Positions 16,231 through 61,529 of a stretch of DNA of 64,000 nt are shown piece by piece. Origin of the DNA: Paraniabella ginsengisoli (lineage in GTDB: Bacteria > Bacteroidota > Bacteroidia > Chitinophagales > Chitinophagaceae); assembly GCF_022513635.1 (NCBI RefSeq), contig NZ_JAKWBL010000004.1, forward strand, positions 806,001-870,000, written 5' to 3'. Below the pieces are notes generated by a model. That model did no database searches. It was not told the origin of the DNA and was given only the letters and a program-made list of their open reading frames with translations. Made by a program: the position numbers and the translations under genes. Each line of letters begins with the position of its first letter. Position 1 is the first letter of the stretch.

Positions 16231-17155
16231 TTACCTCAACAGTAACTCACAGGGCTTTAGCCCTGTTTGTTTTTTAAAGGCAGTGCTGAAATGAGAAATG
16301 GAAGAGTAACCCAACATCATGGAAACATCAGTAACATTAAGGCCTTTCTCATATAAAAGGTACTTAGCGTGTTCCATACGCTGGTTCTGGTAAAAATCAA
16401 AAATAGTAGTACCAAACATTTCCTTAAATCCTTTTTTAAGGTAACATTCATTCATTGCTACTTTGCGGCTCAGTTCTTTGATAGTGATGGGCTGCCCGAT
16501 GCTTTGGATAAGAATATCCCTGGCCAAGGCTATTTTTTCCCGATCAATATCGCTGTTTAAAAAACGGCAGGATAAAATTTCTTCTTTATCCGAAATCCAA
16601 TCCATGCTATATAGTAATAGCATTTGTAATTGGGCATTTACATAAATATTTTCCAGGCTTCCTGTATATTTATGATTAACCAGGGATTCAATCACTCCGC
16701 GTGTTTTGCAGCAGAGCGGTATATTTTTTGAAAAGAATCTTTTTGTTGAAACGCAGCAAAAGGTCTGTACCTGAAGTAGAAGTTTTCCCATTGATGAAAT
16801 GAGAAAGTTGCGGAGCCGAATAATCAACAGATACTACATCATAACTAGGTACACTTTGCGCGCAACTTCTTGCATTACCAATTGTACATTTCTGGCAGCT
16901 TTCAGCCGGGCAATACATATTTCCGGCCACGCAAAATCTTAATTTTACGCTGTTTTGATCGTTGCTTCGCCCTTTATAATCGTAATTCACCATGCCCACA
17001 TCTTCAGCAGCACTCTCTTCGTCACGCATAAAACGCTTGATGGAATAATTTACCGCACCAGGAATAAGCTGTTCCTTACAACTAATAGGTTGTAACCCTT
17101 TTAGTGCATGCATCCATTTCTCCGTAACCGCTTCTATCTCTTGTTGCTTGTTCAT
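16231..17155 (-). CDS. AraC-family transcriptional regulator with Cys-rich sensor region (two frameshifts)
   Basis: The C-terminal 100 residues are a double helix-turn-helix AraC domain (ITIKELSRKVAMNECYLKKG, VTDVSMMLGYSSISHFSTAF, TGLKPCELL). Two single-base losses, in the T run at 16740-16744 and near 16697 (plus strand), split the middle. Restored, it reads FNKKDSFQKIYRSAAKH then AGVIESLVNHKYTGSLENIY, for about 308 residues. The N-terminal region is not a cupin I recognise; it holds five cysteines as C-x6-C-x4-C-x2-C-x7-C at residues 75-98, suggesting a metal or redox site. I chose the start MNKQQEIEAV at 17155 over an upstream ATG at 17188. It is divergent from lpxA and convergent with the sugar transporter. 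Confidence 0.82.
16249..16275 (+). terminator. Rho-independent terminator of the sugar transporter, inside the AraC coding end
   Basis: ACAGGGC-TTTA-GCCCTGT (16249-16266) is a perfect 7-bp stem followed by TTGTTTTTT. It lies 37 bases after the transporter stop codon and within the last codons of the convergent AraC gene, where it encodes the KKQTGLKPCE segment on the other strand. Confidence 0.75.
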
Positions 17156-18933: not shown

Positions 18934-19538
18934 TTATATCTCCGGCAACATCAGCCTTTTCCTTTTAGAATAAATTCTTATAGCAACAACAAGCAGTACG
19001 CAAATAGTCAGGTCAATATTTTTGGTAGTGCCAAGGTATTTATTGATGAGAATGAAAAAATTCCACCCGCAGCACAAGCAGTTGCATACAACTCTCCCTT
19101 GCGTAAAAGTAAAGGAGGGTAGCCACAAAAAATATCAGCAATCAATCCGCCGAAAGTAGCTGTAATTACGCCCATTACCAATCCATAGATTTCGTTAGTG
19201 CCGTTGCGTAAAGCTATCTCGATTCCCGCGGCTGTAAATAATCCTAACCCAATCGCATCGGTAAAGAAAATAGTTCGTCTGAAATTGTTTACTTTATCTT
19301 TTACCAAAAAAGTCACCGCTGTTCCGGCAAAGACCAATGCAAAAGCAAGGTTGTCGTTGATCCAGTTTACAGGTTTTACGCCTAATAATAAATCCCTCAA
19401 CGTGCCGCCGCCATAAGCTGAAACAAAAGCTACCACCAGGCCTCCAAATACATCGAGCTTTGCTCCGCGGGCTTTAAAAGCGCCGGCAAGTGCAAAAACG
19501 AAAATACCGAGATAGGTAATAATTTTTAGAAATGTCAC
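18934..19538 (-). CDS. TRIC-family (UPF0126) cation channel-like membrane protein (frameshifted)
   Basis: The protein is a small multi-helix membrane protein of the trimeric intracellular cation channel family, formerly UPF0126/YicG. It shows the duplicated pattern FALAGAFKARGAKLDVFGGL, VSAYGGGTLRDLLLG and, in the second half, DAIGLGLFTAAG and ATFGGLIADIFCG. The frame is lost in a six-A run at 19055-19060 (plus strand). Adding one base continues GGIFFILINKYLGTTKN and a last hydrophobic helix (LTICVLLVVAIRIY) up to a stop at 18934, giving the usual length of about 200 residues. Function in bacteria is not settled; potassium permeation has been proposed for the family. It is divergent from the crotonase. 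Confidence 0.88.
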
Positions 19539-19600: not shown

Positions 19601-20380
19601 ATGGATTTCAATACGATACTTTTTGATGTAAACGACAACATCGCGGTAATAACAATAAACCGTCCGGACAAATTAAATGCCTTAAACAACGCAGTATTTG
19701 ATGAGTTGGATCAGGCTATTGATGAGATCATTAGCCGACCAGAAATAAAGTCTGCAATTATCACCGGTAGTGGCGATAAGGCTTTTGTTGCAGGCGCAGA
19801 TATTTCTGAGCTTAGGAACCTAGATGCGAAAAACGGTGAAATATTAGCGCAACGCGGGCAAAAGGTTTTTGATAATATTGAAAGCAGCCCTAAGATAATA
19901 ATTGCGGCTATCAACGGGTTTGCATTAGGTGGTGGATGCGAGCTTGCAATGGCTTGCCATTTTAGAGTAGCGAGCGATAATGCCAAATTTGGCCAACCTG
20001 AAGTAAACCTTGGTTTGTTACCAGGCTACGGTGGCACGCAACGTCTTACACAATTGGTTGGCAAAGGAAGATCAATTGAACTTTTAGCAACAGGTGATAT
20101 GATAGATGCCATTACTGCATTTAATTACGGACTGGTAAATCATGTGGTAACAAGAAATGAATTATTACCTAAGGCTAAGTCCATATTAGCTGTTATTAAT
20201 ACAAAAGCGCCTCTTGCTGTGGCCGCATGCATCAATGCTTCTCAATATGCTTATACTAATGATGGTACCGGGTTTGCAATGGAAGCTGCTTCATTTGGAA
20301 AACTTTTAGAAACGAACGATTCGAAAGAAGGAATCGAGGCATTCTTAGAAAAACGCAAGCCCATCTTCAGAAATAACTAA
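19601..20380 (+). CDS. Enoyl-CoA hydratase/isomerase (crotonase family)
   Basis: The 259-residue protein has the crotonase fold. The oxyanion-hole segments AFVAGADISEL near residue 64 and GFALGGGCELAMACHFRVAS near residues 106-125 are present, and both glutamates needed for water addition can be seen, in GGGCELAM and in FGQPEVNLGLLPGYGGTQRL. This favours a true hydratase acting in fatty-acid beta-oxidation over an isomerase. The start at 19601 gives MDFNTILFDVNDNIAVITIN, standard for the family. It stands alone and intact, with no other beta-oxidation gene beside it; the acyl-CoA dehydrogenase at 55370 is far away. Confidence 0.92.
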   Translation: MDFNTILFDVNDNIAVITINRPDKLNALNNAVFDELDQAIDEIISRPEIKSAIITGSGDKAFVAGADISELRNLDAKNGEILAQRGQKVFDNIESSPKIIIAAINGFALGGGCELAMACHFRVASDNAKFGQPEVNLGLLPGYGGTQRLTQLVGKGRSIELLATGDMIDAITAFNYGLVNHVVTRNELLPKAKSILAVINTKAPLAVAACINASQYAYTNDGTGFAMEAASFGKLLETNDSKEGIEAFLEKRKPIFRNN

Positions 20381-20408: not shown

Positions 20409-20486
20409 TACTGAATTTCAGAAAGATATAAGTTTCCTAAAAACTGGAACAGGATTTGTGTAGTTAATAAAAACCGTGACAGCAAG

Positions 20487-21097
20487 ATGATGACTATACG
20501 CGAAAATGGATGTTATTGCTTTACATTGGAGACTATTGATACTGTAGATATATTCAATAAACCTATGTATAAGCAGATCATCGTGCATAGTCTCAATCAT
20601 TTTATAGACAGTAAGAGTTTAATTGTGTACGGTTGGAGTCTCATGTCTAATAAACTATATATTATTTGTCAGTCACATGAGGGGCTGCTTACAAATTTGA
20701 GAGATAGTTTTTTGGTATTTACCTGTGAAAAAATTATTGAAGCCATGAAGGATGAACCCGCCGAAAGGAGAGACTGGCTTTTAACCCATTTTCAAAAATC
20801 CAACCCTCAATCGAAGGTATTGCCGGGCAATCTTGTTGGGGAGATGTAAAAACCACAGCACAGATAGATATGCGTCTTTCGCAAAGCATGGCAGAACAAC
20901 TTGAATTTATACACAGTTTGCCTGTAAAAGAAAGAGTAGTTCAATATTCCTCTGATTATATATATAGCTCCGCCCGGGATTATGCCGGAATGCCAGGACT
21001 GGTGAAAATAAGCAAACCAGCAAGGGTTGAGCATGAATTATACGAAATAGAAAGTCGTAAAAACGGATTCCGAACTAATTATAATCAGCAATCCTGA
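20487..21097 (+). CDS. REP-associated (Y1/IS200-like) transposase relative, catalytically degenerate, frameshifted
   Basis: The layout matches Bacteroidota REP-type tyrosine transposases: an N-terminal F-L-E/V strand, a central VYGWSLMSNKLYIICQS block, a helix RDSFLVFTCEKIIEAM, RRDWLLTHFQKSN and a C-terminal EFIHSLPVKERVV with DYIYSSARDYAG. One lost G near 20845 (gggagatgta) splits it; restored, the second open frame joins to give about 203 residues. The usual HUH motif (N-H-x-H) reads N-K-L-Y here and the helix position normally holding Tyr has Phe, so it should not cleave DNA. It may be a remnant or a domesticated binding protein. No flanking terminal repeats or target duplications are visible. 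Confidence 0.72.
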
Positions 21098-21187: not shown

Positions 21188-21953
21188 ATGCCTCGTAAAA
21201 AGAGATATAATTATAATAATCTGAAACTTATTGCTTCTGCGCTTTTGATTGGCGTTCTGATACTCTTGTTATTGCAATGGGTAAATTCACGAAAGGTAAA
21301 ATTTGTTCATTACGATGCATTTGGAATAGATATGCCTATAGCGTATTCAATTCATGGCATTGATGTTTCCCGTTATCAAAAAAGATTGCCTGGCAAGGAG
21401 TTAAAGAAATGAATGTAGAAAACATTCAATTGAATTTTGCATTTATGAAGGCTACGGAAGGATTAGGTCTTACAGACAAAAATTTTAAATACAATTGGCG
21501 CAATGCTAAAAAGCAAGGCATAGCACGCGGTGCCTATCATTTTTTTATTGCCAGTCAGGATCCTGCTAAGCAGGCGCAACATTTTATTTCTAAGGTCAAG
21601 TTATCGCCGGGAGATCTGCCACCGGTGCTGGATGCAGAGCAGGCCAGCATTTTGCCAGTAAATGCATTTCGCCAAAAAATAAGAACATGGCTGACCATTG
21701 TCGAAACTCATTATAAGGTAAAACCCATTATTTATACCAATGCCGACTTTTATAAAAAATATTTGGGACCAGAGTTTAATACATATCCGCTATGGGTTGC
21801 TCATTACTACGAAAAAGAAAACCCCGCATCAACCGGGAATGGACCTTTTGGCAACACAATGACAGAGGCAATGTAAACGGAATAGACGCCAAAGTTGACT
21901 TTAATGTTTTCAATGGCGATATTATTGCATTTAACGAACTGCTGGTCAAATAA
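21188..21953 (+). CDS. Membrane-anchored GH25 lysozyme-like muramidase (two frameshifts)
   Basis: A single N-terminal membrane helix (residues 14-31, LIASALLIGVLILLLLQW) is followed by a GH25 barrel: HGIDVSRYQK with the first catalytic-site Asp, FMKATEGLGLTD, ARGAYHFFIASQDP, PPVLDAEQ with the catalytic Asp/Glu pair, PIIYTNADFYKKY and YPLWVAHYYE. Two runs are one base short: six A at 21378-21383 (restores YQKKIAWQGVKEM) and four T at 21846-21849 (restores WQHNDRGNVNGIDAKVDFNVF). The repaired protein is about 255 residues, ending at 21953. It would cleave the glycan strand of peptidoglycan outside the inner membrane. The start at 21188 is the only ATG giving the anchor. Confidence 0.86.
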
Positions 21954-57417: not shown

Positions 57418-59435
57418 ATGACGAATAAAATCTGCATGGCAGTGCTAACCGCATGCTGTTTGATTGCCAACCTGTCTTTCGCCCAAAATAAAAGCGCCAT
57501 TAAATTTGGGAAAATTACAAGCTCCGATTTCAAAGTAACATCGCCGGCTGTTGATTCGGCGAGTAATGCCGTTATACTAGCTGACATTGGGAGCTCCACG
57601 ATGGACGGAAACAATAATGGTTTTTTTTCAATAAAGTATACACATTTGCGCCGTATAAAAATTCTTAATAAGAATGGTATAGACGCAGCAGATGTTTCGA
57701 TTTTGTTACATGTATCAGGTAGCACAGAGGAAAAGTTCGAGGACTGTAAGGCTATTACTTATAACCTTGAAAACGGAGAAGTAAAACAAACCAAGCTTGA
57801 AAATAGTAATATTTTTAAGGAAAAAGCTAGCAAATATGCCACGGTAAGGAAATTTACTTTTCCGAATGTAAAGGAGGGTTCAATATTAGAATACACTTAT
57901 ACAATTGTTTCTCCATTCTATGATTATCTACGCTCCTGGGAATTTCAGGGAACTTCATTACCTCGTGTTTATTCGGAATATACGGTTAAAATACCCGAGT
58001 ATTTTAATTTCGTTTTTTTTTCTCAAGGTTATGTACAGTTAAAAAACGAAGCGAACAGCAAAATACAATCATATAGTGTTACAGAAAGCAATGGTACCGG
58101 TGCTTCTGACCGCTATGCACTGACCGGTTATGAAAACACCAACCGATGGATAGCAACTGATATACCCGCACTTCGCGAAGAAACGTATACTTCTACAATC
58201 GAAAACCATTTGTCGAAAATAGATTTTCAATTGAAGCAGGTACAATTCCCGCAACAATCTCCCCGAGAGCATATTGGTAGTTGGGCAAAGGCAGCAGAAA
58301 ATCTGCTTAAAAGAGAAGATTTTGGCTATGAAATAACCCGTCCAAATAATTGGCTTACTGATGATGTTAAAAAGATTGTGAACGGCACTTCTTCGGATGA
58401 TGAAAAGAAATCGAAGATTTATGATTTTGTAAGGGACAACTTTACCGCAACATACCATGCGGGAATGTATATCAACGATAATACAACGCTAAAAGATATT
58501 TTCAGAAAAAGAAGTGGAAACGTAGCTGAGATCAATTTATTGCTAATTGCCATGCTTCGTCAAGTTGGTCTAACTGCAGATCCTGTTATCATCAGCACTA
58601 AAGACAATGGTTGGGCGCATGCATTCTATCCGCTCATGAATAAATACAATTATGTTTTATGTCAAACAATAATGAATGGCAAGCTCGTATATCTTGATGC
58701 ATCACAACCAAAAATGGGATTTGGGAAGCTTTCTCCATTATGCTATAACGGTACGGGGTTTGTTGTGAAGCCGCAGCCAGCAAACATCGTATTAGAATCT
58801 GATTCAGTTAGTGAAAGCAAATTCACGATGATATTTCTTACACAGGATGATAAAAATGGACTGAAGGGATTCTTTAAAACAACGCCTGGTTATTATGAGT
58901 CTACTGAGTTGAGAAAAAATTAGTAAAAGAAAGTTTGGAAGACCTGATAAAGGAAACTAAGAAACGCTATTCATTTCCGATCAATATTAAAAATGAATTT
59001 TTAGACTCTTTAAATAAGTTGGAAAACCCTGTGTCAATAGGATATGATATTGCTTTTGACTTTGATGATCAGGATATTGTCTACCTCAATCCAATGTTCG
59101 CCGAAGCAACAACAAAGAATCCCTTTAGTGCGGCTGAAAGGCGGTATCCTGTTGAGATGCCGTTTAAAATAAGCGAGAACTATGTTCTTAACATGGATAT
59201 ACCAAAAGGATACAAGGTAGATGAATTGCCAAAATCAGCAAGGGTACGATTGAACGAAAGCGATGGTATGTTTGAATACCTGATATCTGCTGATGATAAG
59301 AAAATAATGCTTAATTGTAAAATCAATCTCAACAAAGCCACTTTCCCGGCAGAGGATTATCAGTCGCTACGTGAATTTTTTGGGTATGTTATCAAAAAGC
59401 AAAGCGAACAAATTGTATTAAAAAAGATAAAGTAA
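57418..59435 (+). CDS. DUF3857/transglutaminase-fold protein lacking the catalytic Cys (frameshifted)
   Basis: A secreted protein of about 672 residues with signal peptide (CLIANLSFAQ). The N-terminal part is DUF3857 (VTSPAVDSASNAVILADIG, EEKFEDCKAITYNLENGEV), the middle a transglutaminase-like fold, and the C-terminus beta-rich (DUF3858-like). Where the paralogue downstream has YGDCKALSNYM, this one has RSGNVAEINLLL, and the His position reads NYVLC, so two triad residues are gone, although LVYLDAS keeps the Asp. The six-A run at 58914-58919 is one base short; repair joins ELRKKLVKESLEDL. Probably a non-enzymatic binding or assembly protein of the periplasm. The 255 bases upstream hold no gene. 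Confidence 0.83.
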
Positions 59436-59628: not shown

Positions 59629-61529
59629 ATGAAAAAAATATCGCTTTTAATGATGCTGATGATCTTGCTGCACAACAGTTACGCGCAGTATGCTGTTAAA
59701 GACATTCCGGAAACTTTACTTAAAAATGCAAACCTTGTAAAAAGGCTGGACGATTTAAGAGTCGATATTAAAAACCCAGGTAAGGCTTATTATTACAGAC
59801 ACTATGTATATACTATCCTGAACGAAGAGGCAGACAAATATGCTTTCTTTTATGATCATTACGACAAGTTTCAGGACATTATAAGTATATCCGGTACCTT
59901 GTACGATGCATCGGGCAATAAAATCAAAAATGTAAAAAAGAAAGATATTTTAGACGAAAGCGGTACCAGTGGCAATACTTTAGCTGACGATGCGCGATAT
60001 AAAACACACAACTTTTATCACAAAAATTATCCCTACACAATAGAATACGAAGTGGAAGTGGAGATGAAGGGCATTTTTTATTTGCCTGAATGGCAGCCTG
60101 TTCCCGCTCCCGAAGTTGCAGTGGAAAAATCATCACTAACCGTATATACGCCGAAGGATTATGCCCTTCGTTATAAAGAACTGAGATATAAAGGAGCGCC
60201 ACTTATAAAAGAAGAAAAATCAATAAAGGCTTACCAGTGGCAGGTAACCCATCAAACTGCAACGCCTACAGAAATATTTTCACCAGACTGGGATGATATT
60301 TCCACGCGTGTATTAATTGCGCCATCTGTATTTGAGTTTGGCGGATATAAAGGTGATATGAGTAACTGGCAGGGATTTGGGAAGTTTATGCAAGCTTTAT
60401 ACAATGGCCGTGATGTTTTACCTGCAGATGTCAAATCTAAAGTGCATGAAATTACAGATAACCTTAAGACCAATAAGGAAAAAATAAATGCGTTGTATAA
60501 ATTTATGCAGGACAATACACATTACATCAGTATTCAATTGGGAATAGGAGGCTGGCAACCGTTAGATGCTACGTATGTTGCTGAAAAAAATATGGAGATT
60601 GTAAGGCATTGTCTAATTACATGATTGCGCTACTTAAAGAGGCTGGTATAAAAGCGAACAATGTACTTATCAAAGCTGGCGATGATGCAACTGCAATTCT
60701 AAACGATTTTCCATCCCAGCAATTTAATCATGTCATTGTTTGTGTGCCTGGCGGAAAGGATACTACATGGCTTGAATGTACCAGCCAGACAGTATCTCCT
60801 GGTTATATGGGTTCTTTTACTGGCAATCGTCAGGCGCTGCTTGTAGACGATCTTACAAGCACTGTTGTTCGCACTCCGAAATATACAAAAGAGCAAAACC
60901 TTCAAACGCGTCATATCACAGCTACAATAGATGAAGAGGGAAAATTATCGGCGAAAGTTGTTACTAAAAGTACCGGTTTACAGCAGGATGATCTTCATTC
61001 TTTGATTAATGAAACGTCAAGGGAAGAGCAAAAAAAACGGCTGCAACGAATTTTCTCTATACCTAATTATGATGTGCCAGCTTTCACATACTTTGAAGAT
61101 AAAAATCAGACTGTGCCAGCCATAAATGAAACATTGCAGATCGAATCCAATGATTATGCTAACATTACGGGAAAGCGGCTTTTTATACGTCCGAATATAC
61201 TGGCCACCTATACCTCTAAATTGAGTGAATCCGAAACCCGCGAGAACGACATCTTATATTCTTACCCATTTATTGATAAGGATTCGGTAATGATTGCTAT
61301 TCCTGAAGGATATACTGTAGAAGCGGCACCTAAGCCAATGAAGATCACCAACAAGTTTGGCAACTATTCAATGGACTATAAAATAGATGGCAATAACATT
61401 TTACTACAAAGAGTTTACGAAAGGAATAGCGGCTTATTTCCAGCAAGTGATTATAAAGGTTTTGTAGATTTTTATAACCAGATATATAAAGCAGATCAGG
61501 CGAAGATGGTGTTTGTGAAGAAGGAATAA
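59629..61529 (+). CDS. DUF3857/transglutaminase-fold protein with intact catalytic Cys (frameshifted)
   Basis: A paralogue of the preceding gene, about 633 residues, with signal peptide (LLHNSYAQY). DUF3857 is followed by LYKFMQDNTHYISIQLGIGG and then, after one A is restored in the seven-A run at 60584-60590, by VAEKKYGDCKALSNYMIALL with the transglutaminase Cys (60600-60602). FNHVIVCVP supplies the His, and WLECTSQT has Glu where Asp is usual. It is exported and probably acts in the periplasm or on the surface. The two genes are read in the same direction, separated by 193 bases that carry a repeat element. Confidence 0.87.

Follow-up and report, generated by a model that had tools for sequence, protein, structure and literature searches.

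A TnpA_REP (RAYT) lineage without its catalytic residues, kept at a single locus in Niabella, probably as a host nucleic-acid-binding protein

We examined a window of 64,000 nucleotides of Paraniabella ginsengisoli DNA (the whole stretch that was analysed), which is part of a 4.5 Mb genome in five contigs from a Niabella-like member of the Chitinophagaceae. At positions 20487-21097 of the forward strand, one protein is encoded jointly by two reading frames. The first piece encodes the stretch MSNKLYII, while the second frame, listed as an ORF from 20870 and open from 20756, encodes QLEFIHSLPVKER. The features of the locus, with the basis of each call in brackets, are the following:

19601-20380, forward strand: enoyl-CoA hydratase gene, the upstream neighbour, occupying the place of pcrA in other Niabella (neighbourhood comparison)
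20445-20459, forward strand: cis-element YGGAAYRNNNTTTGY with the geometry GG-N10-G(C/T), which lies 42 bp ahead of the start (shared upstream regions)
20487-20849, forward strand: first frame piece of the inactive REP-transposase-like gene, with the former HUH strand inside (ORF and orthologue alignment)
20649-20660, forward strand: N-K-L-Y at the N-H-u-H site, without either metal-binding His (alignment with relatives)
about 20796-20827, forward strand: stretch holding the frame slip between the two pieces (two open orthologues aligned across it in two frames)
20813-21097, forward strand: second piece, with the Trp motif, the former nucleophile helix, the SSA.DY motif and the C-terminal helix (alignment; helices from the orthologue model)
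20906-20908, forward strand: Phe codon at the catalytic Tyr position, where the second piece reads L-E-F-I-H-S-L-P (alignment with canonical relatives)
20918-20920, forward strand: Leu codon where the third metal ligand, the Asn of the Y---NP motif, would stand (alignment with canonical relatives)
21188-21950, forward strand: GH25 glycosyl hydrolase gene, the downstream neighbour, with a hydrophobic N-terminus by eye and in three frames here (alignment; orthologues intact)

The preliminary description had read this gene as a relative of REP-type transposases in which the HUH motif had become NKLY and the nucleophile Tyr had become Phe, and the alignments with relatives confirmed both substitutions. 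To these two losses we add a third, from Asn to Leu at a position described as a metal ligand of TnpA_REP (PMC6006769). Similar substitutions recurred in all 15 congeneric orthologues, and for this reason the motif losses go beyond chance. All four known catalytic residues are affected: the two His and the Asn are lost genus-wide, and the Tyr is lost in all orthologues but one.

The search of the window pieces against Pfam gave no match. Against NCBIfam, both pieces weakly matched REP_Tyr_transpos (NF047646; E 5.6e-7 and 0.017, below the cut-off), and two full Niabella orthologues scored 46.3 and 55.6 bits (E 3.8e-12 and 5.2e-15), again under the equivalog cut-off of 80 bits. The same model gave 77.7 bits for a locus-clade relative with intact residues and 98.7 and 82.5 bits for two canonical relatives, while transpos_IS200 of NCBIfam did not match either of the two Niabella proteins scanned. 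A sequence search of solved structures with an orthologue also found no match up to E 10. The AlphaFold2 model of the L121 orthologue, built from a 64-sequence alignment (mean pLDDT 88), had as its best PDB match 4er8, the E. coli TnpA_REP with a REP hairpin (Foldseek E 1.4e-5; Z 14.8, rmsd 2.2, 137 residues aligned), and the earlier statement that the fold-level blocks are kept was thus borne out at the level of a predicted structure. Based on two orthologues and one model, the protein shares with TnpA_REP/RAYT the homology of the core domain and the HUH-endonuclease fold; the HuH motif, the catalytic Tyr (outside G008), the Asn ligand and a score above the 80-bit cut-off are lacking.

The congeners belong to Niabella and comprise N. 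defluvii, N. hibiscisoli, N. aurantiaca, N. pedocola, N. drilacis and several MAGs. Open orthologues of 202–209 aa, 56–75% identical to the first piece, were present in 15 of the 16 congeneric genomes. HUH and Asn were absent from all 15, and Tyr from 14, being kept in G008 and replaced elsewhere by Phe or Leu. The replacing residues were themselves conserved: the first-His position was Lys in 14 orthologues and Arg in one (K56 nearly fixed), the second-His position was Tyr in 14 and His in one (Y58 nearly fixed), and all 15 carried Glu at a Thr conserved in canonical relatives. The supposition that the pattern is common to relatives therefore held. The one congener without the gene, G006, has its pcrA and GH25 matches about 60 bp apart; this is a clean absence, a natural knockout, and it indicates that the gene is dispensable.

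The gene evolves under purifying selection, a check that the preliminary description had proposed for NKLY-type homologues. The NG86 dN/dS of the orthologues ranged from 0.011 to 0.066, with a median of 0.034 (9 of 105 pairs with dS below 1.5), next to 0.027 for PcrA (13 pairs), 0.053 for GH25 (6 pairs) and 0.071 for the LpxA/LpxD cluster (17 pairs). Between the window gene and five orthologues, pN was 0.15–0.21 and pS 0.65–0.82 in the first piece, and 0.09–0.17 and 0.72–0.91, respectively, in the second. A copy of a decaying transposase, with the motif losses and the frame break both due to random decay, would fit a split gene from which all four catalytic residues are absent. However, all 15 congeneric orthologues are open and carry the same pattern (Lys or Arg at the first His; Phe, Leu or once Tyr at the Tyr position), and an absence of conserved HUH-less homologues was what the preliminary description would have taken as the mark of decay. 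None of the 15 is disrupted and dN/dS is about 0.03 in the nine usable pairs, unlike a pseudogene; constraint is seen in each half of the window gene, and other genes of the window are split alike. On these grounds we set decay aside as very improbable.

The frame slip itself is most likely an assembly error, because both halves look constrained. The G001 orthologue exits frame 3 at 20795 and re-enters in frame 2 at 20813, while the G003 orthologue exits at 20804 and re-enters at 20828. Among 17 ORFs of G003 compared with the window, 16 matched, and 6 of these 16 are frame-split in the window. They include the REP-like gene and the GH25 gene, the latter broken into three frames, besides four more. 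This fits assembly error and the earlier notion of a global error pattern, under which the gene may be intact in life. Conserved genes of the window found to be frame-split relative to their orthologues, besides the gene under study, lie at 16246-17155, 18937-19538, 21188-21950, 57418-59432 and 59629-61526, as indel errors would produce.

We then considered the neighbourhood. The pcrA gene was within the retrieved stretch in 37 out of 55 homologue loci and directly upstream in 15, and the GH25 gene was within it in 28 loci; in 23, all 15 Niabella among them, it came directly downstream. The window's subclade has the enoyl-CoA hydratase gene instead of pcrA. Pairwise distances of the gene tracked those of PcrA (r 0.75, 36 loci) and GH25 (r 0.63, 26 loci), and 0 of 999 permutations reached r in either case. 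A point against so strong a constraint is that, family-wide, the gene product diverged 4.24 times as much as PcrA and 1.42 times as much as GH25 (median distance ratios). A correlation with the LpxA cluster was dropped, as this cluster mixes LpxA-type genes with others that we take to be LpxD. The proximity of pcrA could also speak for a protein-protein role, for instance as a partner of PcrA or in replication, with no binding of nucleic acid. We regard this as unlikely, since the window's subclade keeps the gene without pcrA in the retrieved locus and the neighbourhood may reflect mere vertical inheritance.

The gap between the gene and GH25 was 13–114 bp in all 15 Niabella, which suggested an operon with GH25. 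We do not claim one, given that the gap sequences, judged by eye, contain stretches resembling promoters, and those of several species also hairpins resembling terminators. In several Niabella (L071-L080) a strong hairpin followed by a T run was seen by eye just before the called GH25 start, and it could be the terminator of the inactive gene or a GH25 leader.

In the wider family, an earlier genome scan with the window piece as query had no confirmed locus; the alignment-based scan confirmed 209 loci, of which 80 were kept. Within this set, counted without a tree, all four residues were intact in 12 out of 34 loci with pcrA or GH25 in the flank, versus 42 out of the 43 assessable loci with neither (three rows without readable catalytic columns, L150, L163 and L190, were left out of the 43; the rows are related and the counts not independent). 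The lone residue-loser counted as not linked, L146, comes from a contig of 3.2 kb, on which linkage is not visible. A quick tree of 83 rows, combining 54 of the 55 loci of one set (L115, truncated, was omitted) with 29 of the 80 of the other, showed the full set of four residues in 27 of the 28 canonical rows versus 21 of the 55 other rows, again related rows. On this tree, in which 25 of 80 inner branches are weakly supported, there were at least 3 changes at HUH, at least 11 at Tyr and at least 4 at Asn. The 29 rows had been hand-picked after the motif table was seen, hence the count of the full set without a tree. The single loser in the canonical clade, L117, sits on a long branch and is near pcrA (its copy is L167). 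Catalytic residues are often lost in relatives near pcrA or GH25 and rarely in relatives near neither. At five of the loci (L103, L104, L111, L112 and L114, in G428, G050, G304, G261 and G366, respectively) two REP-transposase-like genes stand in tandem, the second copy being 26–27% identical to the query.

The preliminary description had proposed, should relatives share the pattern, a domesticated DNA-binding protein, with the intergenic hairpins frequent here as its possible target. Its first part agrees with the pattern common to relatives, the strong purifying selection and the kept fold; the proposed target is not supported. The dispersed repeat in question is about 95 bp long with a core like GCG(TG/AC)GCAACGAAGATGCCATATATT, and the copies listed in the window are at about 18781, 25747 and 50423, all on the reverse strand. 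A genus-wide count of the repeat pattern, which is our main test, allowed up to 3 mismatches. It gave at least 46 copies here, compared with 0 to 5 per genome in the 16 other Niabella, and the reversed control pattern matched in none of the 17 genomes. Fifteen of the 16 repeat-poor Niabella carry the gene, and the gene-less G006 has 2 copies of the repeat. In samples of 180–200 kb from G003, G007, G008 and G015, no 15-mer recurred at as many as four places. The test is weak for samples of this size, as an equal sample of this genome gave only one such 15-mer (464 kb gave 24). Atypical structures of the kind described for subclass 2.6 (PMC6006769) could be missed by this search for high-copy repeats around the gene in the four sampled genomes.

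A non-cleaving protein dedicated to these dispersed repeats would suit the predicted fold, which matches the REP-hairpin-bound enzyme, and the abundance of the repeat here. It is nevertheless improbable: the conserved gene does not track the repeat across the genus, and of the listed copies the closest is some 1.7 kb away. Out of 43 columns conserved in canonical relatives, 25 were kept in at least 14 of the 15 Niabella and 12 were all but gone, among the latter S70, R74 and D75 on the third helix (alpha-3). This helix is described as contacting REP DNA in E. coli TnpA_REP (PMC8266576), and because the three residues have changed, the old-style recognition of hairpins may be altered, possibly lost. 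A further point against a nucleic-acid-binding role is the median pI, only 7.7 in the Niabella proteins (7.8 in canonical ones).

Upstream of the gene we found the co-inherited element, located 40–115 bp before it across the family. We put its pattern together by eye from the regions ahead of the gene in Niabella and relaxed it for variants of other genera, and the clade counts are thus descriptive: it was present in all 15 Niabella, in 14 of the 18 other rows that belong to the GH25/pcrA part and in 7 of the 19 rows of the remaining part. Its test lies in the canonical and control counts: none of the 40 canonical genes and none of the 763 control ORFs was preceded by it. These promoter counts omit rows with less than 150 bp upstream and nine rows that were locus-linked or truncated. 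In the window the pattern matched only at 20445-20459, against a chance mean of 0.30 matches anywhere. The element also precedes relatives with intact catalytic residues, and it thus predates the loss of catalysis.

The spacing GG-N10-GC is that of sigma-54 promoters, and the element could be either an operator or a promoter of an alternative sigma factor. If it were a sigma-54-type promoter, the protein would be the effector of an activator-controlled response and not an autoregulator. This is possible: most sites have the GG-N10-GC spacing, and the genome encodes RpoN (frame-split) and three strong sigma-54 activators. Against it, a near version of the motif was not enriched over the 17 Niabella genomes (33 matches, compared with 41 of the reversed control). 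Of the 12 sites that the broader sigma-54 pattern has in G008, 10 fell inside ORFs, unlike a regulon. We inspected 30 of the 33 matches: 10 preceded the gene, 14 fell within ORFs and 1 preceded a superoxide-dismutase-like gene; the remaining 5 were intergenic, with no ORF starting in the same direction within 250 bp. With pattern counts near or below the control, we do not adopt a sigma-54 regulon as the explanation and retain it as a rival. The match in G003 is 114 bp upstream of what is presumably a superoxide-dismutase-like gene (L293).

Sequence comparison establishes the homology to TnpA_REP, the loss of catalytic residues, the purifying selection and the vertical inheritance. We consider it probable that the gene is a vertically inherited, single-locus and catalytically inactive descendant of a Bacteroidota TnpA_REP (RAYT) that was exapted as a host nucleic-acid-binding protein. 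An ancestral TnpA_REP would have lost both His, the Asn and the Tyr, which should leave a protein unable to nick or join DNA. With its HUH fold kept, the protein would still be able to bind a single strand in folded form or else a short operator, and it would presumably act through binding, without cutting. The most likely specific step, held less firmly, is binding to its own promoter element or close by, which would make the protein an autoregulated regulator; autoregulation is our hypothesis. We tentatively picture a REP transposase turned into a host regulator, which keeps the HUH fold without cleaving and recognises as its operator the element inherited along with it, YGGAAYRNNNTTTGY. Binding would have sufficed in the still-cutting ancestor, and catalysis would then have been lost repeatedly while the gene was kept.

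To our knowledge, the reason why bacteria retain single-copy REP transposases for long periods is still a question. A lineage without catalysis but under selection separates the host function from transposition and opens it to direct testing, for which G006 offers a natural gene-less control. Our searches of open-licence PMC papers brought up no report of this lineage. According to its description of the data set, the survey of Quentin et al. (2018) retained 722 of its 924 sequences, and it took the lack of core motifs to indicate non-functional proteins (PMC6006769); the present case indicates that sequences without HUH or Tyr, set aside there as probably non-functional, can be conserved genes.

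The closest known system is TnpA_REP/RAYT subclass 2.6 of Quentin et al. 2018 (Bertels group 5), the Bacteroidetes group described by the motifs NH[LIV]H, WQ and YIH[QN]NP (PMC6006769). The Niabella proteins share with it the core homology, the Trp and SS motifs and the phylum. They differ in lacking HUH, Tyr and Asn, in their length (202–209 aa versus about 180 aa for canonical members), in the conserved host neighbourhood of the gene and in the absence of a visible repeat family in the four sampled genomes, a weak test. E. coli TnpA_REP (4er8), the best solved match, has a similar fold to that predicted for the orthologue; it is described as cleaving REP hairpins (PMC8266576) with a site of HUH, Tyr and Asn (PMC6006769), whereas the Niabella protein lacks catalytic residues and its orthologues are without HUH and Asn. 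IS200/IS605 TnpA belongs to the same HUH-fold superfamily and gave the next-best structural matches of the orthologue model; it differs in that the Niabella protein has lost the catalytic residues, and transpos_IS200 was unmatched in the two proteins scanned. TldR, of nuclease-dead origin and related to TnpB, is a parallel only in how it is described to work, as a transposon-type enzyme kept as a non-cutting regulator. It is of an unrelated protein family and is RNA-guided. A search of the window against Rfam gave nothing at gathering thresholds.

Finally, the genome of the window holds two further REP-like transposase genes, at G000:C1:407885-408343 (L003) and C1:559274-559696 (L004). Their translations show NHIH or NHFH motifs, and that of L003 also YIHNNP.
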